A stretch of DNA of 64,000 bases, from the NCBI RefSeq assembly GCF_037943105.1, contig NZ_CP149803.1, forward strand, positions 3,638,001-3,702,000. The letters are read 5' to 3'. This DNA is from Pseudomonas sp. TMP9 (GTDB lineage Bacteria > Pseudomonadota > Gammaproteobacteria > Pseudomonadales > Pseudomonadaceae). Made by a program: the position numbers and the translations under genes. This document shows, piece by piece, positions 2,674-35,334 of this stretch. Positions within the stretch are counted from its first letter, which is position 1, and each line of letters starts with the position of its first letter. Under the pieces are notes generated by a model that did no database searches, was not told the DNA's origin, and saw nothing but the letters and a program-made list of their open reading frames with translations.

Positions 2674-2694
2674 TTATATGGTGCACCAGACGGG
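2674..2694. repeat. Left attachment site (att core duplicate)
   Basis: This 21-bp stretch matches 35314-35334 with one mismatch; positions 2679-2694 are identical to the 3' end of tRNA-Arg including the CCA. It marks the left junction of the island and lacks the rest of the tRNA. Confidence 0.92.
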
Positions 2695-4299: not shown

Positions 4300-5181
4300 C
4301 TAGACACCGGCCAGCCTCTGGAAATATCGCTTTTCAAACTCTACCGGTGACAGCTGATCATTGAAACCATGACGCCGTTTCGGGTTGTAAAACATCTCGA
4401 TGTAGTCGAACACGTCACTGCGTGCTTCCTGCCGAGAACCATAGACTTTCCGCTTGATTCGTTCTCGTTTCAGTAACTGGAAAAAGCTCTCAGCCACAGC
4501 GTTGTCATGACAGTTACCGCGCCTGCTCATGCTTCCTAGCAAGTTGTTGGCCTTCAGGAAGCTTTGCCAGTCTGAGCTGCTGTACTGGCTCCCCTGATCT
4601 GAGTGAATCATGACTTCCTGCTTCGGCTTACGTCGCCAGACCGCCATCAGTAACGCATCTATTGCCAAGTCGCTGGTCATGTTCGGTTTCATTGACCAGC
4701 CAATGACCTGACGCGAAAACAGATCGAGCACCACTGCCAAGTACAGCCAGCCCTCGTAAGTTCGGATGTACGTAATGTCGGTCACCCATACTTTATTGGG
4801 CTCTGTGACATTGAAGCGACGTTCCAAATAGTTTGGAGAGGCAACTGGCGGCTTACCACCGTAACGTCCCGGGCGTCGTCGATAGCCCGTCTGCGAACGC
4901 AGCCCCTCTTTACGCATCAGTCGAGCAACACGATGCCGACCGCAGACCTCTCCAAGCTCGCGCAGGTCGTCATGAATTTTACGGTAGCCGTAGACGCCGC
5001 CGCTCTCTAACCAAGAGTGCTTTATCAAGCCAAGCAGTCGCAGGTCATCCTTAGCGCGCGCCGACTTGGGCTCAGCCCGCCATGCGTAGTAACCGCTGAC
5101 GTGTACTTTCAACGTCAGGCACAGACGGCGAATCGAGTAACTCGCTGACATCTGATTAATGAAGGCGTACTTCAGCCGCAC
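4300..5181 (-). CDS. IS3-family transposase OrfB (copy 1)
   Basis: A 293-residue DDE integrase-core protein. Visible are HTH_21-like residues (GVYGYRKIHDDL), the rve core start NKVWVTDITYI (first D), IHSDQGSQY (second D) and the terminal NAVAESFFQLLKRE (E). The frame opens at GTG 5181 but is normally made as an OrfAB fusion by -1 frameshifting at AAAAAAG (5211-5205) inside orfA, within the codons CTA AAA AAG; the shifted frame reads directly into orfB. Confidence 0.95.
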   Translation of the reverse strand: MRLKYAFINQMSASYSIRRLCLTLKVHVSGYYAWRAEPKSARAKDDLRLLGLIKHSWLESGGVYGYRKIHDDLRELGEVCGRHRVARLMRKEGLRSQTGYRRRPGRYGGKPPVASPNYLERRFNVTEPNKVWVTDITYIRTYEGWLYLAVVLDLFSRQVIGWSMKPNMTSDLAIDALLMAVWRRKPKQEVMIHSDQGSQYSSSDWQSFLKANNLLGSMSRRGNCHDNAVAESFFQLLKRERIKRKVYGSRQEARSDVFDYIEMFYNPKRRHGFNDQLSPVEFEKRYFQRLAGV

Positions 5182-5450
5182 TCCTTGGCAAAGTACGCGG
5201 CGGCCTTTTTTAGGATGTCTCGCTCTTCAGTTACACGCTTGAGTTCGGCGCGCAGGCGCCGTAACTCAGCGTGCTGATCATCCTCTTGCAGGCGTTGCTC
5301 CGCAGGCTTGCTGTAGCGCTTCACCCAGGCATACAGGCTGTGTGTCGACATGCCCAGACGAGCGGACACCTCAGCGACCGGCAGGCCCCGTTCGGTAACC
5401 TGCCTAGCTGCTTCAATTTTGAACTCTTCGGAAAAACGCGGGTTGCTCAT
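5172..5450 (-). CDS. IS3-family transposase OrfA (copy 1)
   Basis: A 92-residue DNA-binding protein with an N-terminal helix-turn-helix (residues ~8-45, AARQVTERGLPVAEVSARLG) and a leucine-zipper-like coiled coil (~58-85). A strong AGGAGGT ribosome site lies three bases before the ATG at 5450. It carries the A-AAA-AAG slippery heptamer near its 3' end and overlaps orfB by 10 bp. Confidence 0.94.
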   Translation of the reverse strand: MSNPRFSEEFKIEAARQVTERGLPVAEVSARLGMSTHSLYAWVKRYSKPAEQRLQEDDQHAELRRLRAELKRVTEERDILKKAAAYFAKECG

Positions 5451-5512: not shown

Positions 5513-6141
5513 AACTGCCATTCACACTTATCGATATGGCGTGCGCGCAATCAGGCGCGGCATTAGCGGGGAGTGAAAGTTTTTGGGGCAATAGCCAGCC
5601 TGGTCAACTTTTTAATTTGCTGGCAAGTCAGCAAAATGCAAATCCGATGGTCATGCTGGATGAGTTGGATAAAGCAGGTGGTGACGAACGCTTTGATCCA
5701 TTAGCTGCACTTCATACGCTTCTGGAGCCTGCTGCTGCCCGAAATTTTGTGGATCTTTCAGTACGTGATCTGGCTATTAACGCAAGTCACGTTAATTGGC
5801 TGGCCACGGCAAATGATCTTGAGCGTTTGTCGAAACCGATTCTGTCACGTTTCTCAGTGCTCCACATTCCTGCACCTAGTGCTGATCAGGTCAGCATCAT
5901 CGTAAGAAACCTATATAACCAGACTCGTGACGAGTCATCTTGGGGGCAACACTTCGCTGACACCTTGTGCGACGAAGTAGTTGAGCGCATGTCGACTCTT
6001 GCCCCTCGAAAAATTCGCATTACTTTACAGCGTGCCTTCGGCGCCGCTGCACGCTCAGGAAGGTCCTGTATCCAGCCTGAAGACCTAAAAATTCAAACTC
6101 CCGAAAAACCTAAAGTCTTTGGCTTCATTGCTAGTCCATGA
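5513..6141 (+). pseudogene. AAA+ ATPase (Lon-like ATPase module), 5'-truncated by IS
   Basis: The frame is open from the IS junction at 5513, reading through KLPFTLIDMACAQSG before the first ATG at 5536. It contains Walker B (VMLDELDKAG), a sensor-1-like segment (NWLATANDLERLSKPILSRF with arginine finger) and a sensor-2/lid region (APRKIRITLQRAFGAA). Walker A and everything upstream are missing, and the sequence on the other side of the IS is unrelated, so the N-terminal half was deleted rather than merely separated. It resembles the ATPase half of Lon-like proteins, but no protease domain follows. It is very unlikely to be active. Confidence 0.75.
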
Positions 6142-6326
6142 TCATGCAGAGGAAGCAATTACGTTCGAAAAGATTGGATTCGTGCGCTGCTGATCCGGTG
6201 GCTTTCCACGTTGCGTAGCTGGACCAGTCAATTCTAAGCGACGGCTATTCGCTCACGACTAGCAGTAGACACTTGATTAAAGGCGTGTCGCGGCCAGTAG
6301 GTTGTTGCGCAAAAGGACATATAGCG

Positions 6327-6860
6327 GTGGGCAATAACATCCTGATCGTTGATCTAGAGAGCACGTGCGAAAAAGGGCAGGTGCCAGGCGACGGCTATCA
6401 CAACCAAATCATTGAAATCGGCGCAGTGTGGGTGTCGCCCAACGGCCAAGTGTTAGACCAGTTCGAGCAGTTAGTTCAGGCAAACCTGCCGATCAGTGGG
6501 TATTGCACAGAGCTAACCACGATCACTCAGTCGGAGTCCGACGGAGGCGCTACTTTCGCAGAGGCCTGCGAGGCTCTCGCCGAGTTTGCGGGTCGTTACC
6601 CAAGTAACACTTGGGGTAGCTGGGGGGGTTCAGACCTCAGGGCGCTTGCATTCGACTGCGCCTACCACGGCATTAAAAGCCCCATAGACGGCTGGGTGCA
6701 TCGTAATCTGAAAGCTGAGTTCGCAAAGCAGCGAAAAATTAAACAGGTCGGCATGGCTCGTGCGCTAAAAATCATGGGGATTGTGCTGGAGGGAGCGCAT
6801 CACCGTGCGCTGCCAGATGTAATGAATATCGCCAAACTCCTTGCCGCAACGCAAAAGTGA
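6327..6860 (+). CDS. DEDDh-family 3'-5' exonuclease (DnaQ-like)
   Basis: A ~177-residue protein starting at GTG 6327, which has AAAGGA about nine bases upstream; a longer frame from 6273 has no ribosome site. Exo I is LIVDLEST with IIEIGAVWV after it, Exo II is GSWGGSDLRALAFDC, and Exo III is HHRALPDVMNIAKLL with the His and final Asp of the DEDDh set. It should remove nucleotides from 3' ends of DNA or RNA. It is followed by a HAD-domain remnant, a pairing seen in Pseudomonas accessory regions (general knowledge). Confidence 0.8.
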   Translation: MGNNILIVDLESTCEKGQVPGDGYHNQIIEIGAVWVSPNGQVLDQFEQLVQANLPISGYCTELTTITQSESDGGATFAEACEALAEFAGRYPSNTWGSWGGSDLRALAFDCAYHGIKSPIDGWVHRNLKAEFAKQRKIKQVGMARALKIMGIVLEGAHHRALPDVMNIAKLLAATQK

Positions 6861-7029: not shown

Positions 7030-7887
7030 TTAGGTTGTGAAATAGCTAAGGCTGTCGTGAATGAAATACTCCTGAGGCAGCGCGGCCCCATAGCGCCTAA
7101 GCAACGCCCAGCACTCTGATATCTCAGCATTTGTCGTGCGATCCAGAGTGGCTTTAGTTTGAATCAACTGCTTCTGATAACGTTCGTGATTGAGTGCATC
7201 CTGAAAGCTCGGAATAAGCACAGACTCTTCAGGCCAGATGAGCCCGGCAAAGTGCGGTAATCCCAGCGCTATCAATAGTCCAGCAGGGTCAAAATCCACA
7301 AAAGCTATTACAGGCACCGCAAGCGCCTCCAGCAACCTTGATGTCGAGTCTTGCTGGTATACCGGGCTCCCTCGGAACAGAACCAGCGGGTTATCGCCAG
7401 CGCGAGACAGGTCAAGCGTTACACGGTGAATAGCCTCGAAGGCTTCCCAGTTCTCAACAAGCAAGACTGATTCGTGAGCGCACAGCTCTACTACTTGCGC
7501 CCACGCAACATCAAGGTTGGCGCCAGCGGGCAGGATGATTGCCTCGCCGCCGATCAGCAGCGGTCGCCCAGGTAAGCTCTTGACTGCAACCCTGGCCGTT
7601 CGCACAGGAGCATCCGTAATTTTCTCGTTCTGGGCATACTTCAACGCCTCGGCGCGAGAAATCGAGTTCAAATCAACGCCATTTATCATCTCGGCATCTA
7701 TCCCTTCAGCTTTCAGGATGGCGTCAACCCTCCCCTTATCCTGCGCTGAGATGATCATGGCGGCCCCGGAAGGCCGACCAATGTTGTATTCCTCACAGAA
7801 GCGCTTCAGGCCTTTTGATGGTGACTGGAAGCGCTCATCGCTGCTGGTGCAAATACGCACCAGCGTTTGAATTAGGCTTTTGTCCAC
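7030..7887 (-). CDS. JetD/MksG-like Toprim nuclease of SMC defence operon
   Basis: A 285-residue protein, last gene of a four-gene minus-strand operon, overlapping the kleisin-like gene by 16 bp. The C-terminal half carries a topoisomerase VI/Spo11-type Toprim signature: E145 in VLLVENWEAF and D198/D200 in FVDFDPAGL, the metal-binding acidic set of JetD-type nucleases. The N-terminal ~90 residues look like winged-helix DNA-binding material. In Wadjet systems JetD cleaves the circular DNA that the JetABC loop extruder has reeled in. It is shorter than a typical type I JetD. The assignment rests on motifs plus operon context; I cannot give the Wadjet type. Confidence 0.72.
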   Translation of the reverse strand: MDKSLIQTLVRICTSSDERFQSPSKGLKRFCEEYNIGRPSGAAMIISAQDKGRVDAILKAEGIDAEMINGVDLNSISRAEALKYAQNEKITDAPVRTARVAVKSLPGRPLLIGGEAIILPAGANLDVAWAQVVELCAHESVLLVENWEAFEAIHRVTLDLSRAGDNPLVLFRGSPVYQQDSTSRLLEALAVPVIAFVDFDPAGLLIALGLPHFAGLIWPEESVLIPSFQDALNHERYQKQLIQTKATLDRTTNAEISECWALLRRYGAALPQEYFIHDSLSYFTT

Positions 7888-9101
7888 AGATGCACGTCCT
7901 TGATCGTGATATTCCCTGACAGGCTATAAGCGGCTGGGCCTTCTTCCCTGCGGACTTGCAGCCGTTTAGCGCCACGCACAATCTTGGATTGCGCAGCATC
8001 GAGCAGATAGATCAACCAACCGGCGTCTTCGATGGCAGAGAACTCGGCGTGCTGGCGCTTCCATGCCAGTGCCGACATTGGAGTGCCTGATGCCATGGCT
8101 ACGCGATAGAAGCGTTCGAATGCTGCCCTAGCCGGTGGAACCTCAAGATGAACCTCTTTTGCTGGGCCGTCAGGCTGAAGGGTGCCAGCGGTGCGCCCGC
8201 TTGGGGTGGCGATTGGCGTGCTTGCAGGTATTGAAAGCGCTATATCCACCAGCGCAGCTCTTGTTTGCGGGCAAGACAGGTCTGGTAGCGACTTGATGCG
8301 CGACCCCGGTATCCGCAGAGCCCATTCAGGAAGCACCCGAAGCCCCTCTTCATCAGGCGGTGTCCAGTCTGGGTTAGAGCGCATGAAGTAGGCGAATGTG
8401 CGTATCCGCCCCGCTGCGGCATCGATGTCGCGAAAGCTAAACAGGAACTTCTTGAGGATGTCGGTTACTTCAAGACAGGTTGAGCGCCAGCCGGTTACCA
8501 ACGCCAGCACCTGTTGCTGATAGGACGTGTGTAGAGAGGTCAGCATGGGGCTGTCATCTAGCAGGCCGGTAATAGCATCACCAGCAAGCGTTTCGATGAC
8601 CGATTGCACCCTCTCTGTACGGGTCAAGTAAAATTCGTTCTGGCGCTGCTTCTCGGCGACTGTCCTGACATCGGCAAATTTGTTTTCAGCGACGGCACGC
8701 AAGCCAAGCAAGTCGTTTGATAGCTGTTCAGCCAGCTCAAAAACAGCCTCATCAAAATCCGTTTCGTACTCATCGATCTCGGCAATACGTCCTTCCGAGC
8801 TGGCGTTAGTGAATCCCTCGATCAGGATTTTAAGCCGGTCGATCTGATCCGTATAATTTGCGCCAATTTCATAGCGCCGCTGACGCTGGGAATAGTCATC
8901 TAGATGGCGTTTAAGGCTGGTGTTTAGCCGGAACTCGCCATGGATTTTCGGCTTTAACACCCTGGCATTCTGAAGACGCTGTATTGCCGCCTTGTTATCG
9001 TCCGTGCGCAGCACGCCGCCATTGCAATATGCCTCCGCAATCAAAGCACGGTTCGAGCTGAGCAGGCCGATGTAGCCGGCGATGTCATCTGCGGCACTCA
9101 T
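7872..9101 (-). CDS. JetA/MksF-like kleisin-type subunit
   Basis: A 409-residue mostly helical cytoplasmic protein. Its N-terminus looks winged-helix-like and its middle (~80-200) is helical and charged, consistent with a MukF/MksF-type kleisin that bridges the SMC heads. No catalytic motif is visible. It overlaps the previous gene by four bases (ATGA) and the next by 16 bp, so translation is coupled. The identification comes mainly from position between a MukE-like and a Toprim gene in an SMC operon; sequence evidence alone is weak. Confidence 0.6.
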   Translation of the reverse strand: MSAADDIAGYIGLLSSNRALIAEAYCNGGVLRTDDNKAAIQRLQNARVLKPKIHGEFRLNTSLKRHLDDYSQRQRRYEIGANYTDQIDRLKILIEGFTNASSEGRIAEIDEYETDFDEAVFELAEQLSNDLLGLRAVAENKFADVRTVAEKQRQNEFYLTRTERVQSVIETLAGDAITGLLDDSPMLTSLHTSYQQQVLALVTGWRSTCLEVTDILKKFLFSFRDIDAAAGRIRTFAYFMRSNPDWTPPDEEGLRVLPEWALRIPGSRIKSLPDLSCPQTRAALVDIALSIPASTPIATPSGRTAGTLQPDGPAKEVHLEVPPARAAFERFYRVAMASGTPMSALAWKRQHAEFSAIEDAGWLIYLLDAAQSKIVRGAKRLQVRREEGPAAYSLSGNITIKDVHLWTKA

Positions 9102-9718
9102 AACAGGCTGGGCTCACTGACTGGCACGCCATCATCTATTGCTGCGACTGAATCATGCTCCATCAGGAAGTCGATAGTTTCCCTGAACAGCTCGATCTTG
9201 CCGGTGACCTGATACAGCTCCCGCTCTGGGTTGCTCAGATACAAATACCCATGGGAAACGAAGTGCTTGAGAATCTTCGTCAGCCTTGCTCGGTCAGTAC
9301 CGTCATTGGACGGTGAAAGCATGGTGGCAAGAGTCTGCAACTCATTGCGGAAGCTGGGGCTGGCGTCGATGGCTGCCATCAACTTGCTGGCTTCAATTAC
9401 GGAGCCTGGCATCAGGTAGTCATCGTTGCGCATGGCGCGCATCAGTAAGTCCATGAAGTAAACCAGCGGCCGATCAACCTGTTTGATTTCTTTGAAGACC
9501 TCCTTCGCCACCTTACGTGTCTCTGTGGATCCAGCCATACAGGCGGCATAGAAGGCGCTACGTCTTTGCGTTTGCGCCAGCTTTAGATTAATTCGCTGAA
9601 GGTGGGCGCTGACATCCTGTGCGTTGGCAGGATCGCTCAGGAAAGTATGTCCATCAGGATTGGATATGGCGCAGATAACCTCACCTGCTAATAGGCCGCG
9701 CACAACCTCACTGAACAT
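9098..9718 (-). CDS. JetB/MksE-like (MukE-type) subunit
   Basis: The start at ATG 9718 is favoured: AGGAAGG lies upstream, and the 11-bp overlap with the ATPase gene couples the two. The product is 206 residues, beginning MFSEVVRGLLAGEVIC, and is helical. Its second half (~120-190) resembles a tandem winged-helix MukE fold (LTKILKHFVSHGYLYLSNPERELYQVTGKIELF). It would bind the kleisin and DNA beneath the SMC heads. No enzymatic motif is present. The longer frame to 9772 lies entirely within the ATPase gene. Confidence 0.65.
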   Translation of the reverse strand: MFSEVVRGLLAGEVICAISNPDGHTFLSDPANAQDVSAHLQRINLKLAQTQRRSAFYAACMAGSTETRKVAKEVFKEIKQVDRPLVYFMDLLMRAMRNDDYLMPGSVIEASKLMAAIDASPSFRNELQTLATMLSPSNDGTDRARLTKILKHFVSHGYLYLSNPERELYQVTGKIELFRETIDFLMEHDSVAAIDDGVPVSEPSLL

Positions 9719-12700
9719 GGGCGAATTCCTTCCTGAGGGCTGCTGGTTCCGTATACAGCCTGTCATCGTCAATGATCACCGAAGACAATCGACGGTCTGG
9801 CTCAACTGTGTAGCGGTGCGCGAAGAGCGACAGCGTGTCGGGGTCTGGATCAGGGAATGCACTGACAAGGGTGATGTTGTTGCGCTTCAGCAGTGCCAGC
9901 AGTTGAAACACATTACCTGCAGATAAATCCTTCAATTCATCCAGCGCCCAGGTGATATTCAAGGTATTGGAATCGCCTCGAATACGGTTAATGAAGCCGA
10001 TGAAGATGGTTGTCAGAACCAAGTACGAAAGCCCATTAGACGATACCTCTTTGAGGTCGGATGCCTTCTTGAAGAACCGCCTGTTGCCGTTCTCTACAAC
10101 CTCCCCTTGTATTCGGATCAAGCTATTGAAGTCGGCACGGATGCCTGTTTTAACATCCCAGAAGCCCAGCAGCCGTTCGACATTTTGCGCGAACTCAGCG
10201 GATGGAAGTTCGGATGAATCACCAAGGGATAGTGCCTCGCGAGACTGGAACATCTCTTCAACAACACTCCAGTATTCTTTCTCTGCGATTGTCGAGATGA
10301 TTTCAACGCCGACATGAGAAATGCTTTCAAACGCAAGGCTGCGGTCGAGGCCAGTTTGCAGCTCACGGTTGAACTGATTCACACGCCGATGGAAGCTGGA
10401 CATCTTGGCGTGGAAACCCTTTATCTCGCCAGCAATCATTGATGATTCGGATATCAGTAGACGCCGATATTCAGTGTGGGCTCCCGCGTACCATGCAGAT
10501 AATGGCGCCACCCATTCCCTGCATGGCCTTGGGTAGTCGGTTGGTATGGCTTGCTCGATGTACTGTTTGGGTGCCCGACCCTTGAAACCCTCGTAAACCT
10601 CTCTTACGCCGCGCGCCACTGCGGCTTCTAGGTCGATTTCTTTATGAAGCTGCCTATTGGCTTGCGCGTTAAGCATGTCGAGCGTCCACGCGGGATCATA
10701 AGCAGGCGTTAGAGCGCTTGGGCGGTTCTCTAAATCGCTTATGCGGCGTCCAGCAGTCTCTACGGCGCCATTCAGCGCTTTCAGCTCTTTCTCTCGCTTG
10801 GTGATGCTGACACCAAGTTCGGTTGAGCGAATATCCCAAGCCTCTTTCTCATCCTGAAGCTTGGCAGCAATTTCGGTTTGCAAGACGCGCAGGCGCTCAC
10901 CTTCGCGAACATGCTCTTTATGTTTAGGCCATTCATCGCGGCACCAGTGCCGCCAATAACCAACATCTCTAGCCCAAGTTTCAGCATTACGAATAGCCGT
11001 TTTGGCGGTTTCAATCTGGGCCTCGATCGCAGCAAGCGCTGAAGTATCCACACCTTGCGCGCTCAGTAGCTGATCCCGGTCACTGTCATATCCGGCGAAC
11101 TTGGCCTGAAGCGAGTTTTCAACAAGTGTAAGGCCGTTCAAAATCGATTTAACATCGTGGCTGCATTCAGCCTTCAGAGCATCCTTTTTGGCAGAAAAAT
11201 CAGCAATAATGGATTTTCGCTCTCGCTCTGTGTCGCCTTTATGCTGAATCAGAGCAGCAGTAGCATCGCTGCGGGCCTGCCTCGCTACACGCAGATGCTC
11301 TTTTGCGCTGTCATGTGCCTCGGTTTTGCTTTTGGCAACAAGAGCGCCTGCGGCCTGCCTGTCAGCATCGGCGGCAGTAACAGTCAAACCAAGCGTTTGC
11401 ACATGACGCTTCTGCTTGTCCCTTGCTGTTTCAGCTTCTTTGAGTGCATCACCGATGCGCTTCAGTTCAATTACGGCAAGCCTGTGCGTCTCGGTAGCAG
11501 CGCCGGCAGCTGCCTGCGCTCGCTCTAAGGCCTGTTGAGCCACCGTCACGTCTGCTGATGGGTGAGCTTCCAAATAATCGAGGTTGAGAGACAGCCCGTA
11601 CACACCATTGACGTAATCGGAGACGGATGGGGCCAGATCGGTTCGCTCAAGGATGTCACCGCGAATGACTTTAGCGATTGACGATGACCATGCTGCCGGG
11701 CATTCGTCCCGCAAAAACCGTAACAAAGTTCCATCGCCAGGATTGAGCTGGCGCTTGCAGTCCTCCATGTAGGCGTTCGCCTCGATAACCGCCCGATCAA
11801 GAACACCAATCTTGCGCTCCTGATCACTGAAGTGAGTCCGGACTGTGAGATAGCTTTTTTCAAGCGCCGTGAGTGTTTCCTGTCCTAATCGGACTGTCTC
11901 GCGGGCGACTTCCAGTGCTTCTCGCTTCTGTTCAAGAAGCTCAACCAGCTCGGGATCAGCCTGCGGACTTTTCTCTGCAACCTCGCGCCGGGCAAACTCT
12001 TCGATTGCGGACTGTAGGCGCTCGTCCAGCACCATTCGCTTAACATCCGCCTCAGCGCGCGCGGCGTCATCCGCCTGCATCTGGGCTTCGTTAATGCGTT
12101 CAATGGCCTTATCGCAAGCCGCAAGCAGTTCTTTCTCGCGGGTCATGGCAACTTCTTTTGCGATATTGAACTCGGCCTGATCTTCGTTCTTCAGCCGGTC
12201 ATAACGCTCAGTGACCTCCCTAGACTCGCCAATAAGAATTCCGTGACGCTCTTTCAAGCTGTCTAGATTTGATTTCTGGTCTTGGAGCCCATCTACGCAT
12301 CGTGCTTTGTCTTGTATTTCAGAAGACTCGTAGTCAATAAAGCGCTTATTAAGTTGTGCCGCTGCGGCTTCAGCTGCGCTGGCAGCCTGGTTCGCATCAC
12401 CGTGCTTGTCGCGCAAGTTGGTTCGGGCCTGATCGTATTGATCTCGCTCGTTATGGAGGGTTTTCGTCAGGTGAACTAGCGCAGCATTGGCTTCTACCAC
12501 CTTCCCCTCAAGATGATTTTTCAAACTGGCATATTTTGCGCGAATCTCTGCAAGCGCATCGTCAATAGCCATAAGGTCTGATTCGGATTCTTCAACGGCA
12601 GCCATTCGAGGCTCCAGCTTCATTACCGCAACATAAGCGTTGTAATCACTAGTCCATCCTTCGATCTTGCTCCGATCCTGTGAGATCGAGATGCTGCCAG

Positions 12701-13421
12701 CCCCGCTATCGAAGCCAGCGTGCCCATCGGAAACACAATTGACGACCATGCTCTGAAGGTCTGAAAAGTTGGTTTCTCTGCGGAACATGCCTGTGACAAT
12801 CTTTTCGATCTGCCGCAAGGGCTGTTGCGAAAAGGAGTAGTCCTGCACCAACTGCTTGATCTCGCGCTGGCGCTGCCGGTCAGAAGTAGGGAATACCGCG
12901 CCCTGGATGATTGCGCGATATTCAGAAATCGTTTCAATTTGGCGATCTGCAAAAATAACGCCGGAAAGCTTGAGGTGGGCCTTCAGGTTCTGTGCTGTCA
13001 CAAGATCGGTGTCGGACGTTTTGAACATCGACTCATTAAAGCCTCCCCGTACAAACCTGTAGCTCAGTTTCTCCCCGCTCCCCGTTGAGTAACAGACCAC
13101 AAGTCGCAGCGATCCATCAGCTCGGGAATACTCGAAACAGATGTAAGAGGTCGTCCTTGGCAGGTAGTAATCGATAAAGCTGTCTTTACCTGCGTTCACC
13201 TTCACGATTTCACTTGGGCTTTCCCCGTAGAACAACGGCAGGAGCTGCAAGTACGAGGTTTTGCCACGGCCATTGATCCCGGTCAGCACTGCGCCACCGT
13301 CAAGGCGCATTTCGACGATCCGGCCGGGGCTCAGTGAGTCCACGAGGATAAGCCGAAGCAGTCTCGAGCCTAGGCCCGAGACGCTGCCAGTTTGCATAGT
13401 GCCCGTCGTGGAATCTGTCAT
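9708..13421 (-). CDS. JetC/MksB-like SMC ATPase
   Basis: A 1237-residue SMC-type ATPase, first gene of the operon. Walker A is GINGRGKTS at residues 48-56 (K54), preceded by LRLILVDSLSPGRI as in MukB/JetC N-heads. Long charged coiled-coil arms fill ~270-500 and ~610-860 around a central hinge-like region. The C-head has an SNGLS signature segment and Walker B ITWALDEL (D and E near 1161-1162). Such proteins dimerise and extrude DNA loops; in Wadjet this detects small circular plasmids. The gene order here (ATPase first) differs from canonical jetABCD. About 120 bp separate it from the upstream recombinase gene, room for its own promoter, though I see no clear -35/-10 pair. Confidence 0.82.
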   Translation of the reverse strand: MTDSTTGTMQTGSVSGLGSRLLRLILVDSLSPGRIVEMRLDGGAVLTGINGRGKTSYLQLLPLFYGESPSEIVKVNAGKDSFIDYYLPRTTSYICFEYSRADGSLRLVVCYSTGSGEKLSYRFVRGGFNESMFKTSDTDLVTAQNLKAHLKLSGVIFADRQIETISEYRAIIQGAVFPTSDRQRQREIKQLVQDYSFSQQPLRQIEKIVTGMFRRETNFSDLQSMVVNCVSDGHAGFDSGAGSISISQDRSKIEGWTSDYNAYVAVMKLEPRMAAVEESESDLMAIDDALAEIRAKYASLKNHLEGKVVEANAALVHLTKTLHNERDQYDQARTNLRDKHGDANQAASAAEAAAAQLNKRFIDYESSEIQDKARCVDGLQDQKSNLDSLKERHGILIGESREVTERYDRLKNEDQAEFNIAKEVAMTREKELLAACDKAIERINEAQMQADDAARAEADVKRMVLDERLQSAIEEFARREVAEKSPQADPELVELLEQKREALEVARETVRLGQETLTALEKSYLTVRTHFSDQERKIGVLDRAVIEANAYMEDCKRQLNPGDGTLLRFLRDECPAAWSSSIAKVIRGDILERTDLAPSVSDYVNGVYGLSLNLDYLEAHPSADVTVAQQALERAQAAAGAATETHRLAVIELKRIGDALKEAETARDKQKRHVQTLGLTVTAADADRQAAGALVAKSKTEAHDSAKEHLRVARQARSDATAALIQHKGDTERERKSIIADFSAKKDALKAECSHDVKSILNGLTLVENSLQAKFAGYDSDRDQLLSAQGVDTSALAAIEAQIETAKTAIRNAETWARDVGYWRHWCRDEWPKHKEHVREGERLRVLQTEIAAKLQDEKEAWDIRSTELGVSITKREKELKALNGAVETAGRRISDLENRPSALTPAYDPAWTLDMLNAQANRQLHKEIDLEAAVARGVREVYEGFKGRAPKQYIEQAIPTDYPRPCREWVAPLSAWYAGAHTEYRRLLISESSMIAGEIKGFHAKMSSFHRRVNQFNRELQTGLDRSLAFESISHVGVEIISTIAEKEYWSVVEEMFQSREALSLGDSSELPSAEFAQNVERLLGFWDVKTGIRADFNSLIRIQGEVVENGNRRFFKKASDLKEVSSNGLSYLVLTTIFIGFINRIRGDSNTLNITWALDELKDLSAGNVFQLLALLKRNNITLVSAFPDPDPDTLSLFAHRYTVEPDRRLSSVIIDDDRLYTEPAALRKEFAHVQ

Positions 13422-13543: not shown

Positions 13544-14575
13544 TTACCGACGTTTAGTTTTTAAGGCAGGGGACTCATTTGCAAAAAGATGCTTCGGGTC
13601 TCGCACCTCTCCGCGCAGTGCACGGTCCGCCTCTACTGCCAGCAAAGTGGTTCGCCCAGCGTGCCCATTTCGCGCCGAACCGTACCGGCTTTTGCTTGCA
13701 CGACTGACATGGCCTAGCGCTAGAGAGATTGAGTCAGGATCGGCTTTTTGCGCTTTCAAATCCCCCGCAAATGCATGCCGCAGGCTGTATGCACTAACGC
13801 CTTGAAACCCCAGTTTCTGAGCGGCTGCAGCAATAGCTTTTTGAAGGCCAAGGCCCTGTTTGGGCGCCACTGAAATTTGCCCGCCTTTACTCACAACCGC
13901 TTGGCGAAGTTTTTCGGCAATTCCGCCTCGGAGGGTTAGGCGCCGCCACGCTTGGCCTGCATCAGTGTTATCGCTAACTTTGGCCCCCTGAATTAATATC
14001 TCCAGGCTACTGTCCGGCAGAGCTCGTAGCTCAACCGGCTTTCCTAGCTCCTCTGGCCTGGCGCCGGTAAGCACCATTATTGCGCAATGCAGTTGATGTT
14101 TAGATGCAATGGCCTCTAATAACTGGTTGCGCCAATTGCTGGGCAATCCGGCTAGCGAACGCCGTTTAGCCTTTGAGTTTTCACGTTGCTTTTGGGGGAG
14201 ATTGTATTGCTCCTGACTCAGCAGTTGAGCTGCATAGTTTCTAGCCAGCACTCGTGCGGCTGCGCGATCCTCGGCTGTGGGGGCGTACTCTGATTCGCGT
14301 AATGCCTCGGACAACCAATAAGCCATCGACACGCGCCAGGCAGCCCTCAATGTAGCTGGGTTGCGTAACTGTCGAGCCGTCGCGTAATCATGCCAGTGAG
14401 CACCATCTAGGCGCAGCATAATGCGTCGATATTCAGCCTTGGTGGAGTCAGCTAGACCGCTATATCGGTCTAAAATCGGATTGGCGATTGCTCGGAGTTC
14501 ACCTCTGTCTGACGGCGCAACGGGGGTCGCAGAGTTCTTTGTTGAGCTGTCTACATTTTTAGCTGGTCGCCTCAT
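13544..14575 (-). CDS. Tyrosine recombinase (phage integrase family)
   Basis: A 343-residue site-specific recombinase. Catalytic residues are visible in order: R in TGARPEELGK, the RH pair in YSLRHAFAGDL, H in ALGHVSRAS and the nucleophile Y in KSRYGSARNG. The N-terminal ~130 residues look like a core-binding SAM-like domain. It is distinct from the P4-type integrase at the island's right end and lies just upstream of, and in the same direction as, the SMC operon. It could move that cargo separately or be a remnant of an older element. A perfect inverted repeat lies ~85 bp upstream of its start. Confidence 0.88.
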   Translation of the reverse strand: MRRPAKNVDSSTKNSATPVAPSDRGELRAIANPILDRYSGLADSTKAEYRRIMLRLDGAHWHDYATARQLRNPATLRAAWRVSMAYWLSEALRESEYAPTAEDRAAARVLARNYAAQLLSQEQYNLPQKQRENSKAKRRSLAGLPSNWRNQLLEAIASKHQLHCAIMVLTGARPEELGKPVELRALPDSSLEILIQGAKVSDNTDAGQAWRRLTLRGGIAEKLRQAVVSKGGQISVAPKQGLGLQKAIAAAAQKLGFQGVSAYSLRHAFAGDLKAQKADPDSISLALGHVSRASKSRYGSARNGHAGRTTLLAVEADRALRGEVRDPKHLFANESPALKTKRR

Positions 14576-28669: not shown

Positions 28670-29551
28670 CTAGACACCGGCCAGCCTCTGGAAATATCGC
28701 TTTTCAAACTCTACCGGTGACAGCTGATCATTGAAACCATGACGCCGTTTCGGGTTGTAAAACATCTCGATGTAGTCGAACACGTCACTGCGTGCTTCCT
28801 GCCGAGAACCATAGACTTTCCGCTTGATTCGTTCTCGTTTCAGTAACTGGAAAAAGCTCTCAGCCACAGCGTTGTCATGACAGTTACCGCGCCTGCTCAT
28901 GCTTCCTAGCAAGTTGTTGGCCTTCAGGAAGCTTTGCCAGTCTGAGCTGCTGTACTGGCTCCCCTGATCTGAGTGAATCATGACTTCCTGCTTCGGCTTA
29001 CGTCGCCAGACCGCCATCAGTAACGCATCTATTGCCAAGTCGCTGGTCATGTTCGGTTTCATTGACCAGCCAATGACCTGACGCGAAAACAGATCGAGCA
29101 CCACTGCCAAGTACAGCCAGCCCTCGTAAGTTCGGATGTACGTAATGTCGGTCACCCATACTTTATTGGGCTCTGTGACATTGAAGCGACGTTCCAAATA
29201 GTTTGGAGAGGCAACTGGCGGCTTACCACCGTAACGTCCCGGGCGTCGTCGATAGCCCGTCTGCGAACGCAGCCCCTCTTTACGCATCAGTCGAGCAACA
29301 CGATGCCGACCGCAGACCTCTCCAAGCTCGCGCAGGTCGTCATGAATTTTACGGTAGCCGTAGACGCCGCCGCTCTCTAACCAAGAGTGCTTTATCAAGC
29401 CAAGCAGTCGCAGGTCATCCTTAGCGCGCGCCGACTTGGGCTCAGCCCGCCATGCGTAGTAACCGCTGACGTGTACTTTCAACGTCAGGCACAGACGGCG
29501 AATCGAGTAACTCGCTGACATCTGATTAATGAAGGCGTACTTCAGCCGCAC
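28670..29551 (-). CDS. IS3-family transposase OrfB (copy 2)
   Basis: Encodes the same 293 residues as the OrfB of copy 1, with all DDE residues. It starts at GTG and is expected to be made as an OrfAB fusion by -1 frameshifting in orfA. Confidence 0.95.
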   Translation of the reverse strand: MRLKYAFINQMSASYSIRRLCLTLKVHVSGYYAWRAEPKSARAKDDLRLLGLIKHSWLESGGVYGYRKIHDDLRELGEVCGRHRVARLMRKEGLRSQTGYRRRPGRYGGKPPVASPNYLERRFNVTEPNKVWVTDITYIRTYEGWLYLAVVLDLFSRQVIGWSMKPNMTSDLAIDALLMAVWRRKPKQEVMIHSDQGSQYSSSDWQSFLKANNLLGSMSRRGNCHDNAVAESFFQLLKRERIKRKVYGSRQEARSDVFDYIEMFYNPKRRHGFNDQLSPVEFEKRYFQRLAGV

Positions 29552-29820
29552 TCCTTGGCAAAGTACGCGGCGGCCTTTTTTAGGATGTCTCGCTCTTCAG
29601 TTACACGCTTGAGTTCGGCGCGCAGGCGCCGTAACTCAGCGTGCTGATCATCCTCTTGCAGGCGTTGCTCCGCAGGCTTGCTGTAGCGCTTCACCCAGGC
29701 ATACAGGCTGTGTGTCGACATGCCCAGACGAGCGGACACCTCAGCGACCGGCAGGCCCCGTTCGGTAACCTGCCTAGCTGCTTCAATTTTGAACTCTTCG
29801 GAAAAACGCGGGTTGCTCAT
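29542..29820 (-). CDS. IS3-family transposase OrfA (copy 2)
   Basis: Encodes the same 92 residues as the OrfA of copy 1, with the same AGGAGGT ribosome site and the slippery AAAAAAG heptamer near the 3' end. Confidence 0.94.
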   Translation of the reverse strand: MSNPRFSEEFKIEAARQVTERGLPVAEVSARLGMSTHSLYAWVKRYSKPAEQRLQEDDQHAELRRLRAELKRVTEERDILKKAAAYFAKECG

Positions 29821-29831
29821 GGCACCTCCTG

Positions 29832-32800
29832 ATGGGCCTTATTATGAGGCGTGGAGGTGTCTACGAAACTAGGGGCGATTCAATCTACCTTCTGGCACAT
29901 GAGCTCGGCCATTGGTATCTCGACTCTTCAGAGCCCGTAAATGGAACGACCTCAACACCATTTATCTCCGAAGAGTCTGGGCAAACGCCCGGCTACGCAG
30001 TGGTTGAAGGGTATGGCGCATGGGAGCGCCAAGAGCTTCAAGCCAACGTCTTTGCGCGAGAGCTGCTGTTGCCCAAGCCTGCGGCCAGAGCTCTGTGGCA
30101 AAACGGATGGCGCTCCCGGCATATCGCTACAACGTTCCAGTTGCCTCTAGAGGTGGTACGGCAGCAATTGGCTGACGCGTTACTGCTCCCGGATGTTGCT
30201 CCAGTAGCACCCTCTGCGACGCACCCACCAAGCGATGCGCAGTGGCGTGCTGCACAAGCTCCCGAGAGATACGTCAATGTCGTAGCAGGGCCAGGCACGG
30301 GCAAGACCACTACCTTGGTGCACCGTGTAGCCCACCTAATTTCCAGTGGCGTGCCTGCCAGTAAAATCCTGGTCATGACGTTCACCAACCTTGCAGCACA
30401 GGAGCTTGTTGAGCGGCTGACTGCGGCCAATGTCCCGAGTGTTTCCCAAATATGGGCGGGCACATTTCACTCGTTCGGGTTAGAGCTACTTCGAAAGCAT
30501 CATCATCACTTTGAGTTAACCCCTCAGATCAAGATTGCGGATCTACTCCAGCAGGTCAGGATGATGGTCAACGAGCTGCCCAATCTGGAGCTCAAGTATT
30601 TTTTCAGGCTGCGCAATCCGTACGATTGGCTTCCTGACGTCCTGAAGATTATTCACCGGCTTAAGGAAGAGCTGGTCTTTCCTGACGACTACGCAGCAAT
30701 CCTTCGAACGCTTCCAGCTGTCGATCCAGAGGTTGCCCTGGAGCGCGAGGACATCATCACTCTATACCGGGCCTACGAGGGCGTCCTGCGCAGGGAGGGT
30801 TGGGTCGACTATCCAGACCTATTGGTTCGTCCCGTCCTCAAGGCGCGTGATGATCGCCCGTCTATAGCCGCTTTCCTTGAGCAGTACGACCATGTCCTGG
30901 TGGACGAGTATCAGGACGTCAACCACGTCATGATCGAGCTCGTTAAAAAGATCGGGGCATCACAGCGTCATTTGTGGGTGGTCGGCGACATTCGCCAAGC
31001 AATTCACCATTGGCGTGGCGCATCGATCCAGAGTTTGCTCAAGTTCGATGAGGCGTACGTCGCGAGGGGCCAGGCAGCGTCGATCAAGCGGTATAGCCTG
31101 GACATCAATCGCCGTAGTTCGCCGGAAATTCTGCGTGCTATTGAACGGGCCGGCACTGATCACGTCCTGCAGCCCCAGGTGCCCCTCGATCCTGTCTCAC
31201 CTTCTCGCTCTGCGGTCGGTGTCTATCCGGCTTTGATCCATGCGGAGAAAGATGCACAGAGCGGCACTATCGTTGCCCAGATTGAGCAATGCCGGGTGTC
31301 CGGCCACCCCCTCGGCAGCCAAGGCATCATCAGCTCCACCAACGCCCAGTTGGATAAGTTGGCCCAAGACATCGAGCAGACGGGGATTCCCGTGCTGCAC
31401 ATCGGTGATCTGAGTCAGCGCGCTGAAGTCAAAGAATTCCTGTGCTTGATGCAGCTCCTGACTCAGCGAATACCGGGCGCGCTCATGGGCTTGCTCCGGT
31501 TCAGTAACCTCAGTATGCCAGCCTCGGACATAGACCTGCTCACGAACCTGTCCAAGTTAGATCCTGATTTTCAGCGCGGCGGCTGGCTCAAGCAGCCATT
31601 ACCGGGGCTGTCGCCTAAGGGGCAAGAGGTCGTCCAGGCGCTGAGTGATCTGCTTGGCACATCGACCCGCAATTCCCGGCCCTGGGCTTTTGTGTGTGAT
31701 CTAATGTTTGAAAAAGGCTTTGGCCTTGACTCGCTGAGCGACCAGTCTGCGAATGCCCAGATCCGGCGTCTGGCCCTGCGGCAATTCCTCTACGCTGTGC
31801 GCAACAGCGATGGGGTTGGTAGCCAGGCGACGCTGTCCAAATATCTGGAGAGGGAAGATTTCCGACGCTATATCGGTCAGCCCTCGATGGATCGCTCACT
31901 GCCGCCTGAGGCCGCTGTAATCGACGCCGTAAGGCTCATGACGGTTCACGGTAGCAAAGGGCTCGAATTTGACGTGGTGCATATGGCCAACGTCGAGAAG
32001 TCTCGGTTCGGCGCAGATGCTTCACCACGTTTTGATGACGACCACAAAGCTTTATTGTTGCCCCCTGAGGCGCTCAACAGTACGTCTCAGATGCGGGCCG
32101 AAGATGAGGCTATCGAGCGTAACAACCTGCTCTACGTCGGGGTCTCCAGGGCGAAAAGCAGGCTCAACGTCTATTGCGGCACCGATGCGTCTAGGATCCC
32201 AACCCCTCTGTGTGACCCGTTGATCTTCACCCCAAGTCGTGGAACCGCCGCGGCGTTGCCGGCACCGACTTTCCTGGCTCGCGTTCCACTAAGCGCGCCC
32301 GCCGCAATCAGCTTCTCAGCACTCAACGGGTTCATATCCTGCTCGCTTCAGTATCACTATGCTCACGAGCTGAACCTGCCACCTGATCAAGAGCAGGACA
32401 TCTCGATTCGGGCTCGTCGATCAGTGCTCGCCGGCCTTGAGTATGTTTATCGAGATGGTGTGAACCCCCAGGCGGCATTCGAGCAGGCCTGGGGCGAGAG
32501 GCCGCTGCCAACTGAGTTTGAAGACAAAACACTGGTGGAGCACGCCCGGATCGCTTTCTCTCGCGGTACCGCTTTGCTACCTGATATCGAGCAGTACGTC
32601 CCAGAAACCACCGCCATTGTGAATGGCCAGGTCATTACCATGCCCTGGATGCTTCGTGACACTAACGGTGATCTGGTTTGGCTACGCACGGGTATCGGAC
32701 TATCCGAGGTTTCTAGGCATGTCCGACCCATCTTGGAAAACCTCGGCGGCAGGCGCTGTAGCAGCATCTCCACCCACTCACTTGTCACTGGATGTTCGGA

Positions 32801-32942
32801 AGACGCGGTTCCCTCCAGTAGGGCGAGCGGCACGAGTATGTTCAAGGCGATCACGGCGTTGCGGGCCGGCGAGCGCTCCGCCAGTCGGGGGAGGCACTGC
32901 AATCGATGCGCTTACTCAAGCATTTGCGGACAGCGGTTTTGA
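29832..32942 (+). CDS. ImmA/IrrE metallopeptidase - UvrD helicase - nuclease fusion, 5' end replaced by IS
   Basis: The 1036-residue frame opens at ATG 29832 inside the IS; the first ~17 residues are IS-encoded and native sequence begins at 29883. Residues 18-80 are the C-terminal part of an M78 (ImmA/IrrE) peptidase: HELGH zinc motif at 23-27 and E68 in QELQANVFARELLLP. A UvrD/REP SF1 helicase follows: Walker A GPGTGKTT at 153-160, LVDEYQDVN, and a late GSKGLEFDVVH motif. The C-terminus resembles a PD-(D/E)xK domain with Fe-S cysteines (SC in NGFISCSLQYHY, then C1023, C1026, C1032), but the expected D...D/ExK residues read as LVWLRTG, so the nuclease may be inactive. The N-terminal part of the peptidase, and any HTH before it, is lost. 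Confidence 0.75.
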   Translation: MGLIMRRGGVYETRGDSIYLLAHELGHWYLDSSEPVNGTTSTPFISEESGQTPGYAVVEGYGAWERQELQANVFARELLLPKPAARALWQNGWRSRHIATTFQLPLEVVRQQLADALLLPDVAPVAPSATHPPSDAQWRAAQAPERYVNVVAGPGTGKTTTLVHRVAHLISSGVPASKILVMTFTNLAAQELVERLTAANVPSVSQIWAGTFHSFGLELLRKHHHHFELTPQIKIADLLQQVRMMVNELPNLELKYFFRLRNPYDWLPDVLKIIHRLKEELVFPDDYAAILRTLPAVDPEVALEREDIITLYRAYEGVLRREGWVDYPDLLVRPVLKARDDRPSIAAFLEQYDHVLVDEYQDVNHVMIELVKKIGASQRHLWVVGDIRQAIHHWRGASIQSLLKFDEAYVARGQAASIKRYSLDINRRSSPEILRAIERAGTDHVLQPQVPLDPVSPSRSAVGVYPALIHAEKDAQSGTIVAQIEQCRVSGHPLGSQGIISSTNAQLDKLAQDIEQTGIPVLHIGDLSQRAEVKEFLCLMQLLTQRIPGALMGLLRFSNLSMPASDIDLLTNLSKLDPDFQRGGWLKQPLPGLSPKGQEVVQALSDLLGTSTRNSRPWAFVCDLMFEKGFGLDSLSDQSANAQIRRLALRQFLYAVRNSDGVGSQATLSKYLEREDFRRYIGQPSMDRSLPPEAAVIDAVRLMTVHGSKGLEFDVVHMANVEKSRFGADASPRFDDDHKALLLPPEALNSTSQMRAEDEAIERNNLLYVGVSRAKSRLNVYCGTDASRIPTPLCDPLIFTPSRGTAAALPAPTFLARVPLSAPAAISFSALNGFISCSLQYHYAHELNLPPDQEQDISIRARRSVLAGLEYVYRDGVNPQAAFEQAWGERPLPTEFEDKTLVEHARIAFSRGTALLPDIEQYVPETTAIVNGQVITMPWMLRDTNGDLVWLRTGIGLSEVSRHVRPILENLGGRRCSSISTHSLVTGCSEDAVPSSRASGTSMFKAITALRAGERSASRGRHCNRCAYSSICGQRF

Positions 32943-33916: not shown

Positions 33917-35152
33917 TTACGATTTCTGATTGAGCGGGGGATTTACTGCTGTCTGTGTCTCTAGTCTGTCTAGGTGATCGGCGTACCACTGCATCATGGT
34001 TCGGCGCTGTTCCAGGTAGGTGGCCTTGTTGTAAACACCTGATACGCCATCTTCAACGTGGGAGAGCTGAGCTTCTACATGATCCTTGGCGAAACCCTTC
34101 TCGCGCAGGGTAGTGGACGCGATATGGCGGAAGCCGTGGCCCGTTTGCCGACCTGCATAGCCCATACGGCGCAGAGCCATATTGAAAACCATGTTGCTGC
34201 GCGGTTGAGTACGGTCGTTGCGCCCAGGAAACAGCAGCGGGTAAGCCCCACTCATCTTGTGTAACTGCTCAAGAGCATCAAGCACTTGGCGCGAGAGCGG
34301 CACGGTGTGCGGGCGGCGCTTCTTCATTCGTTCGGCGGGGATCATCCACAAACCTGCTTTGCGGTCGAACTCATCCCAGCGGGCTTCGCGTAGTTCGCTG
34401 GGGCGTACACCCGTAAGCATCAGCATGCGCAAACCAAGGCGCACATCATGGGCGTGAGGGTAAGCAGCAATGGCCCGCAGCAGAGTGGGCAACTCTTTGG
34501 CGGTAACGTGGGCATAGTTCTCGGCAGACTTGGTTTGCAGAAAGCGGCTCAACCCTTCAAGTGGGTTATGCACGGCACGGCCAGTGACGCGGGCAAGGTC
34601 GTAGATTTCTTTACAGGATCGGCGCACCCGGCTCATCTGCTCAATAATGCCTTGCTGCTCCATACCCCGCAGAAACTCCATCCACTCAATCGGCAGGATG
34701 CTGGCATACAAGCGCTTACCGAATATCGGGAATACATGCAGCTCTAGTGCCCCGATGTTGCGAGTGGCGGTGCTGGGTGCCCAGCCGGGTCGGCGTATCT
34801 CTATCCACTCCCGTGCCAGTGCATCAAAAGTGTTGTTGGCAGCTTCCAACTCAGAAGCCTTGCGAGCGTGCTTAGCCGTCAGGGGGCTAACACCATCCAC
34901 GGCGTCAGTGCGCAGCTCGGCAGCCTTTTGCCTAGCGCCTGCTCCACTCACTTCGGGGTAACTGCCAAGGCCAAGCCATGACCACTTACCGTCTGGCTTC
35001 TTGTAACGCAGTTCCCAAGATTTGCCGCCGTTGGGCTTCACACGAAAGTACAGACCTTGGCCGTCTTGCTCCCTGTAGGTCGCTTTTTCTGGCTCTAAAC
35101 CCGACAGAGTGGTGTCTGCTAACGGGCGGCGCTTGATCTCACTGCGTTTCAT
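33917..35152 (-). CDS. int: P4-type tyrosine integrase
   Basis: A 411-residue integrase. The N-terminal arm-binding DUF4102 domain (~1-90) shows [17 protein letters not shown] and the [13 protein letters not shown] pattern. The catalytic domain has R in [13 protein letters not shown], the HxxR box [15 protein letters not shown] in [11 protein letters not shown] and Y in [11 protein letters not shown]. Full length. It starts 167 bp from the 3' end of tRNA-Arg, its attachment site, and would mediate integration and excision of the island. Confidence 0.96.
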
Positions 35153-35313: not shown

Positions 35314-35334
35314 TTATTTGGTGCACCAGACGGG
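35314..35334. repeat. Right attachment site (3' end of tRNA-Arg)
   Basis: Matches 2674-2694 with one mismatch; the identical 16 bp are the tRNA's 3' acceptor strand, CCA and part of the T-arm. Confidence 0.92.

Follow-up and report, generated by a model that had tools for sequence, protein, structure and literature searches.

Wadjet type I and MksBEFG are four-gene operons that encode an SMC ATPase, a KITE subunit, a kleisin and a TopoVI-type Toprim nuclease. In Wadjet types I and II, DNA is described as being extruded and small circles as being cut once they have been fully reeled in (PMC10586767, PMC12647877); the gene order of MksBEFG is given as mksFEBG (PMC10123090), and the Wadjet types were still counted as three in November 2025 (PMC12647877). 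Here we describe an operon of Pseudomonas sp. TMP9 in which genes for four such subunits, referred to as C, B, A and D, stand in the order C-B-A-D. It lies in a stretch of 64,000 nucleotides (RefSeq assembly GCF_037943105.1, contig NZ_CP149803.1, positions 3,638,001 to 3,702,000 of the forward strand), hereafter the window, to which all coordinates refer unless stated otherwise. We consider it likely that the four proteins form one complex of the Wadjet/Mks group that extrudes and cuts circular DNA, and that they belong to a separate branch outside the types I-III of the PADLOC defence-system models.

The whole operon spans 13421-7030 on the minus strand, in a host genome assembled as a single contig of 3.75 Mb. 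Its genes and key motifs are as follows:

9708..13421, minus strand: gene C, SMC ATPase of 1237 residues, ATG start (Pfam DUF3584, PF12128; open reading frame verified)
13257..13280, minus strand: Walker A motif of C, GINGRGKT
10020..10043, minus strand: ABC signature motif of C, SSNGLSYL
9927..9950, minus strand: Walker B region of C, WALDELKD
9098..9718, minus strand: gene B, KITE subunit of MksE/JetB type, 206 residues (PF21980, MksE)
7872..9101, minus strand: gene A, MukF-like kleisin by predicted fold, 409 residues, ATG start
7030..7887, minus strand: gene D, predicted short JetD/MksG-type Toprim nuclease, 285 residues, GTG start (Pfam DUF7281)
7453..7455, minus strand: codon of E145 in D, predicted metal-binding residue
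7288..7296, minus strand: codons of D198-F-D200 in D, predicted metal-binding DxD

Neighbouring genes overlap by 11 bp (C/B), 4 bp (B/A) and 16 bp (A/D), as given by an earlier reading made from the sequence alone (the sequence-only reading); coordinates and strand were verified as well. The most likely start of B is the ATG at 9718, which is backed in the family alignment by an N-terminal MFxxxxxxLLxG pattern common to its relatives; the TTG at 9772 chosen by the open reading frame caller would merely lengthen B to 224 residues. A scan for promoters and terminators returned fewer sites than were found in shuffled sequences.

Evidence on the single subunits was obtained from Pfam and PADLOC models, from predicted structures, and from profile comparisons with reference proteins or alignments (11 for A, B and D, four for C). 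C matches PF12128 with 598 bits over residues 25-1207 and contains the Walker A, signature and Walker B motifs expected of the SMC ATPase that it had been taken for. Across the relatives described below, Walker A, the conserved S and G of the signature motif and the D-E pair of Walker B are retained in 60/60 loci with D and in 23/23 loci without it. The N-terminal head of C is closest to the MksB of an mksFEBG operon, L027 (E 3e-9, probability 96%), followed by type I JetC (E 2e-5, 79%) and MukB (E 1e-3, 21%). B, called MukE-like by the sequence-only reading, is an MksE-type KITE protein by Pfam (38.9 bits against a cut-off of 27), and type I JetB was the best of its 11 references (E 1e-3, probability 22%, residues 13-191). 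Sequence searches of the PDB returned only coiled coils for C, and no informative match for B or A.

The predicted fold of D (mean predicted local distance difference test score, pLDDT, 93) matches MksG, JetD, TopoVI-A and Spo11, with TopoVI-A as the first Foldseek hit; the JetD/MksG fold on which the sequence-only reading had staked its case was thus recovered. By profile, D aligns along most of its length with the MksG of L027 (hhalign E 3e-9, probability 96%), and further matches are type I JetD (E 3e-4, 41%) and TopoVI-A (E 6e-4). E145, D198 and D200 are present as that reading had claimed and are invariant in all 43 aligned D proteins, the window's own included. In type I JetD an arm keeps the enzyme inactive; D, with its short N-terminus, may have this arm in reduced form, and its control by C-B-A may differ accordingly.

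A is a putative kleisin. Its best PDB match by Foldseek is MukF (7nz2_C1, E 5.5e-4, template modelling (TM) score 0.26), colinear from residue 1, and the AlphaFold2 model from which this match derives has a pLDDT of 81 and a predicted TM score of 0.47; however, unrelated helical bundles score equally high on residues 80-221. A has no Pfam or PADLOC match and no profile match to the kleisins JetA, MukF and MksF, and a homologue search with it returned nine proteins among 7,996 candidates scored. A kleisin-like fold is the best structural match, while sequence relation to known kleisins was not found by these comparisons. For B, C and D the best profile match is the expected counterpart, as it would be for a distant member of the Wadjet group, and we count these matches of three of the four subunits in favour of a Wadjet/Mks-group complex.

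Known Wadjet models do not recover the operon. In the search against JetA-D profiles that had been proposed with the sequence-only reading, none of the four window proteins matched a PADLOC Jet model of types I-III at an E limit of 10 (the HMMER filters drop most matches above 0.1), whereas the four proteins of a type I operon (L125), a control for type I only, scored E 9e-104 to 0 against the same models. For two relatives, a search with eight proteins produced partial or weak matches only, the best of them between JetD3 and the D of L017 (E 4e-6). For types II and III the comparison consisted of the PADLOC models. Placement in the Wadjet/Mks group is supported by co-directional genes for SMC, kleisin-like, KITE and Toprim nuclease subunits, by the MksE/JetB type of the KITE protein B, and by a TopoVI-A-like Toprim fold of JetD/MksG type with conserved acidic residues in D.

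The arrangement recurs widely. GTDB representatives were scanned with an alignment of C, which yielded 565 confirmed loci, and the best 80 by score (L030-L109; not a random sample) were retained. As 13 further loci (L017-L029) had been picked by D and one (L001) by DNA similarity, the fair count is that of the C-selected set of 80: 48 are C-B-A-D with all four genes on one strand, 27 have C-B-A, four have C only (L034, L051, L065, L070) and one has C and D split (L090). Four of the 27 C-B-A loci are cut by a contig end (L032, L049, L050, L107), leaving 23 that are intact and lack D. That 48/80 loci repeat these families, co-directional and identically ordered, argues that C-B-A-D, which had been read correctly in the window, is not a chance arrangement. 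When the window, L001 and L017-L029 are added, 60 of 95 loci are C-B-A-D; the C, A and D profiles were built from 12 of these, and the B profile from 11. Genes overlap or abut at C/B and B/A in 60/60 and at A/D in 51/60, and the widest gap is 144 bp. The four genes also evolve coherently: pairwise identity of D tracks that of C (rho 0.756 over 59 loci, with 0/500 permutations as high), and the value for A against B is 0.767.

Hosts of operons with D include Pseudomonas, Massilia, Polynucleobacter, Methylobacter, Thiocapsa, Idiomarina and Stutzerimonas, and DUF7281 scored above its cut-off in 12/398 genomes of the phylum. Within the window's genus C is sporadic, being above cut-off in 7/199 genomes when the best few candidates per genome were scored, and five full-length relatives examined there are all C-B-A-D; genomes G650 and G681 are probably those of L045 and L042, met a second time. 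Among 72,556 plasmid records, 14 carry a relative of C at E <1e-20, the smallest being an Acinetobacter plasmid of 40 kb on which 17% of C is covered. Seven of them cover 80% or more of C; their lengths, 107 kb to 1.17 Mb, exceed the upper size limit of 50-100 kb reported for Wadjet (PMC10586767), which we count as support for a complex that cuts small circles. Four annotated plasmids have four genes of matching size and order, with C named 'ATP-binding protein' and the other three 'hypothetical protein'; of these, only L001 was checked by profile. Carriage by viruses was considered and set aside: the sole phage record matched at an E limit of 1e-10 was Dolichospermum phage Dfl-JY45 (PP438435.1, 86994-90560; 37% of C, E 4e-21), and two pattern matches in the viral_contigs set were both unrelated to D.

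D is missing with C-B-A intact in 23/80 loci picked by C, and the genes found downstream of A in these loci are unrelated to D (TerB-like, HlyD-like and DnaB-like by reading of their sequences). A whole-genome search for DUF7281 was positive in 6/6 genomes with D and found none in the 18 of 23 D-less genomes covered, L077, L078, L081 and L097 being among those left out. The most useful additional finding of this analysis is that, at a single locus, the nuclease gene is present in some and absent from other closely related species. Moritella sp. PE36 (with D) and JT01 (without) are 90-92% identical in the flanking DNA around a gap of ~0.9 kb that matches D, and Bowmanella denitrificans (with D) is 79-81% identical to B. 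pacifica and B. yangjiangensis (without) around a gap of ~1.1 kb that matches D. Presence and absence of D changes at least eight times on a FastTree phylogeny of 87 C proteins and nine times on an IQ-TREE phylogeny of 56 built from the head only; long branches make deep placements in these trees unsure. The closest kin of the B. denitrificans D are found in the D-bearing loci whose C is nearest to that of B. denitrificans. Together with the way in which D tracks C, this favours an ancestral D that was repeatedly lost over one repeatedly gained from outside; the trees alone give no direction.

Operons with and without D also differ in their surroundings. Flanks were compared for 61 loci with enough flanking DNA (40 with D, 20 without, one undetermined); the pairs are few and not independent. 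Where C is at least 80% identical, the shared fraction of flanking genes is 0.82 in D-less pairs (17 pairs), 0.18 in D-bearing pairs (six) and 0.96 in mixed pairs (three); at 65-80% identity it is 0.05 (10 D-less pairs) and 0.00 (nine D-bearing pairs), and the contrast is thus confined to the closer relatives. This suggests that D-less operons occupy stable sites and that D-bearing operons move. For C, B and A, the ratio of nonsynonymous to synonymous substitution rates (dN/dS) ranges from 0.008 to 0.028 in D-less pairs (one value undefined) and from 0.009 to 0.167 in mixed and D-bearing pairs; dS exceeds 1 in the D-less pairs, making their values rough and the ranges unfit for close comparison. 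In the family to which the Alteromonas lipolytica genome belongs, C is above cut-off in 37/79 genomes and D in four, three of them with C (only the best few candidates per genome were scored), and this common yet non-universal occurrence argues against an essential role.

ScpA was found in 24/25 genomes checked and Pfam MukB (PF04310) in none of the same number or in the window genome, with a positive E. coli control; a D-less operon would therefore as a rule be a second condensin. One D-less genome, that of Moritella sp. JT01 (G409), has neither a ScpA nor a MukB match, which may be an assembly gap or may reflect reliance on the C-B-A complex. A tentative reading, to which we give somewhat less than even weight, is that the family is a fourth branch of the Wadjet group and has repeatedly and recently turned into a chromosome condensin, D having been deleted in place several times in Alteromonadales while strong purifying selection kept C-B-A as a fixed machine of the chromosome. 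A step proposed for the origin of MksBEF and MukBEF, in which a defence system loses JetD, would in that case be visible between living sister species. The conversion becomes testable because D-less operons keep their ATPase motifs and have low dN/dS, and Moritella PE36/JT01 and B. denitrificans with B. pacifica and B. yangjiangensis provide natural sets of species with and without D at one locus.

In the window, the operon lies within an island of 32.7 kb that has a 16-bp copy of the 3' end of a tRNA-Arg gene at either boundary:

2679..2694, no strand: left attachment-site copy, 16 bp identical to the 3' end of tRNA-Arg
35319..35334, no strand: right attachment site, 3' end of the tRNA-Arg gene
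33917..35152, minus strand: island integrase, part of the carrier element and outside the system (Phage_integrase 79.9 bits, Arm-DNA-bind_3 64.8 bits)

The sequence-only reading of a P4-like island is borne out by the integrase beside tRNA-Arg, the 16-bp end copies and a Toprim/DUF927 gene pair with the look of a P4 primase. Its 'second recombinase' at 13544-14575 has only a sub-threshold integrase match (21.4 bits against a cut-off of 27.1) and was rejected as a part of the system, as phmmer found no relative of it among the open reading frames of other loci. Defence genes of the island comprise type I restriction M, S and R genes, RhuM and a GajB-like helicase. The last is the UvrD helicase part of a 1036-residue protein (29832-32942), which also has an IrrE-like peptidase domain and a weak PD-(D/E)XK match and may be a defence helicase-nuclease. 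A fragment at 28089-28673 matches the beginning of a defence reverse transcriptase (DRT) of the UG5-nitrilase kind and is cut beside an IS3-type element, of which the island holds two identical copies of 1151 bp (4300-5450 and 28670-29820); a short AAA ATPase gene (5536-6141) adjoins the first copy. Beside the operon is a DEDDh exonuclease gene (6273-6860), which has a relative on a Pseudomonas serbica plasmid (L037, 3675-4265) ~5.7 kb from the operon there, and none among the open reading frames of the other loci compared. No conserved accessory gene was seen; D-bearing loci share few flanking genes, and the flanks were not scanned with family libraries.

By analogy with characterised Wadjet complexes, two C ATPases would be bridged by the MukF-like kleisin A carrying KITE subunits B, and C-B-A would load onto DNA and use ATP to reel it into a loop. 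Once a small closed circle had been reeled in completely, the motor would stall, and D, travelling with the complex, would be licensed to cleave both strands. That the proteins assemble, extrude loops, sense the size of circles, cut through D and exclude plasmids is inferred from published experiments with types I and II. The present data themselves show which genes are there, in what order and with what overlaps, that the ATPase and Toprim residues are intact, how A and D are predicted to fold, and that the four genes evolve coherently. The defence surroundings in the window and the sporadic occurrence in the genus were also counted in favour of a Wadjet/Mks-group complex. The same cutting mechanism, viewed from the side of its carrier, could be a device of rivalry between mobile elements, by which islands and large plasmids exclude competing small plasmids rather than protect the cell. 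We regard this as possible, if short of probable, and as compatible with a circle-cutting complex: its carrier in the window is a tRNA-Arg island, relatives occur on plasmids 107 kb to 1.17 Mb in length, and D-bearing loci with C at least 80% identical share few flanking genes (mean 0.18, six pairs).

Other explanations fit the data less well. An anti-phage role, with the complex sensing linear, circularised or replicating phage DNA and D cutting it or killing the cell, would suit an island that also holds type I restriction, a DRT fragment and a GajB-like helicase, and weak PADLOC matches of C do include LmuB of Lamassu and AriA of PARIS. These matches are partial, however, confined to the ATPase or coiled coil (AriA E 2.5e-4; LmuB E 0.03 to 6), and to our knowledge the set of KITE, kleisin and TopoVI-type Toprim proteins is that of Wadjet and not of Lamassu or PARIS; we consider this role unlikely. 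A condensin-like organiser of the chromosome, with D as an accessory topoisomerase-like enzyme rather than a defence nuclease, could be argued from the existence of strongly conserved D-less C-B-A operons and from a fold of D shared with TopoVI-A, its first Foldseek hit, yet it seems improbable for the window operon, as C is sporadic in the genus (7/199), unlike a housekeeping gene, and the genome already has ScpA. In addition, characterised JetD and MksG lack a catalytic tyrosine in the CAP domain (PMC10586767, PMC10123090). The labelling of PADLOC's JetC models as 'DUF3584 domain; MukB-like', which names the Pfam family of C, could hint at a rearranged ordinary operon of types I-III, but with no Jet model matching the four window proteins against the strong type I control, and with an order kept in 48/80 loci that speaks against local rearrangement, this is very unlikely.

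A circle-cutting complex of this composition would add a new branch to the SMC-based plasmid defences, with a shorter nuclease and a MukF-like kleisin. The branch may already be listed, unnamed, in the operon survey of a 2025 MukBEF paper, in which 257,542 genomes were searched for MksB-F-E operons with optional MksG and several Wadjet-group members without nuclease are mentioned (PMC7617805). No publication mentioning DUF7281 was found, none of those naming DUF3584 is titled on Wadjet or SMC complexes, and no description of the C-B-A-D order appeared in the titles and abstract openings covered.

With Lamassu and PARIS the operon shares an SMC/Rad50-like ATPase and an effector partner. The LmuA, LmuB and LmuC models gave weak matches to LmuB and LmuC only (LmuC E 0.02), and a kleisin-like gene is present; we know of no kleisin and KITE pair in either system. 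MukBEF and MksBEF condensins are alike in the MukF-like kleisin fold and in the three-part composition of the D-less C-B-A operons. They differ in that the gene order is reversed relative to E. coli mukFEB, the window operon has a nuclease, and neither A to MukF nor B to MukE shows profile similarity.

Closer in its nuclease is the MksFEB operon of L027 (6356-11876), whose nuclease is of the same Pfam family, DUF7281, as D and whose KITE protein is MksE (100 bits), but whose order is A-B-C-D (mksFEBG) and whose 923-residue SMC protein has no DUF3584 match. The DUF7281 nucleases thus serve two or more SMC types. In L028 (479-6349), L029 (11255-16454) and L145 (7445-14067), a DUF7281-like nuclease occurs in a third arrangement, D-C-A, in which the SMC has ~980-1000 residues. 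An MksE-type KITE gene comes next in L028 and L145, a WYL-domain gene precedes D in L145, and DUF7281 scores 28.7 bits in L145 and falls below the cut-off of 27 in L028 and L029.

Wadjet type I is matched in its four-gene composition and differs in several respects. Type I operons of the same class have the order A-B-C in 4/4 loci, with a D of 404-427 residues next in three and an open reading frame of 1013 residues after C in the fourth (L128), as against C-B-A-D in the window; the window D has 285 residues, ~120 fewer than type I JetD; and A has no sequence relation to JetA. The earlier view of a related anti-plasmid system and under-described variant is thus partly supported: its class is the probable one, the order, the short D and the island stand as distinguishing marks, and the neighbouring recombinase falls away. 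From these comparisons, the C-B-A-D family would appear to be a separate branch of the Wadjet/Mks group outside the PADLOC type I-III models.

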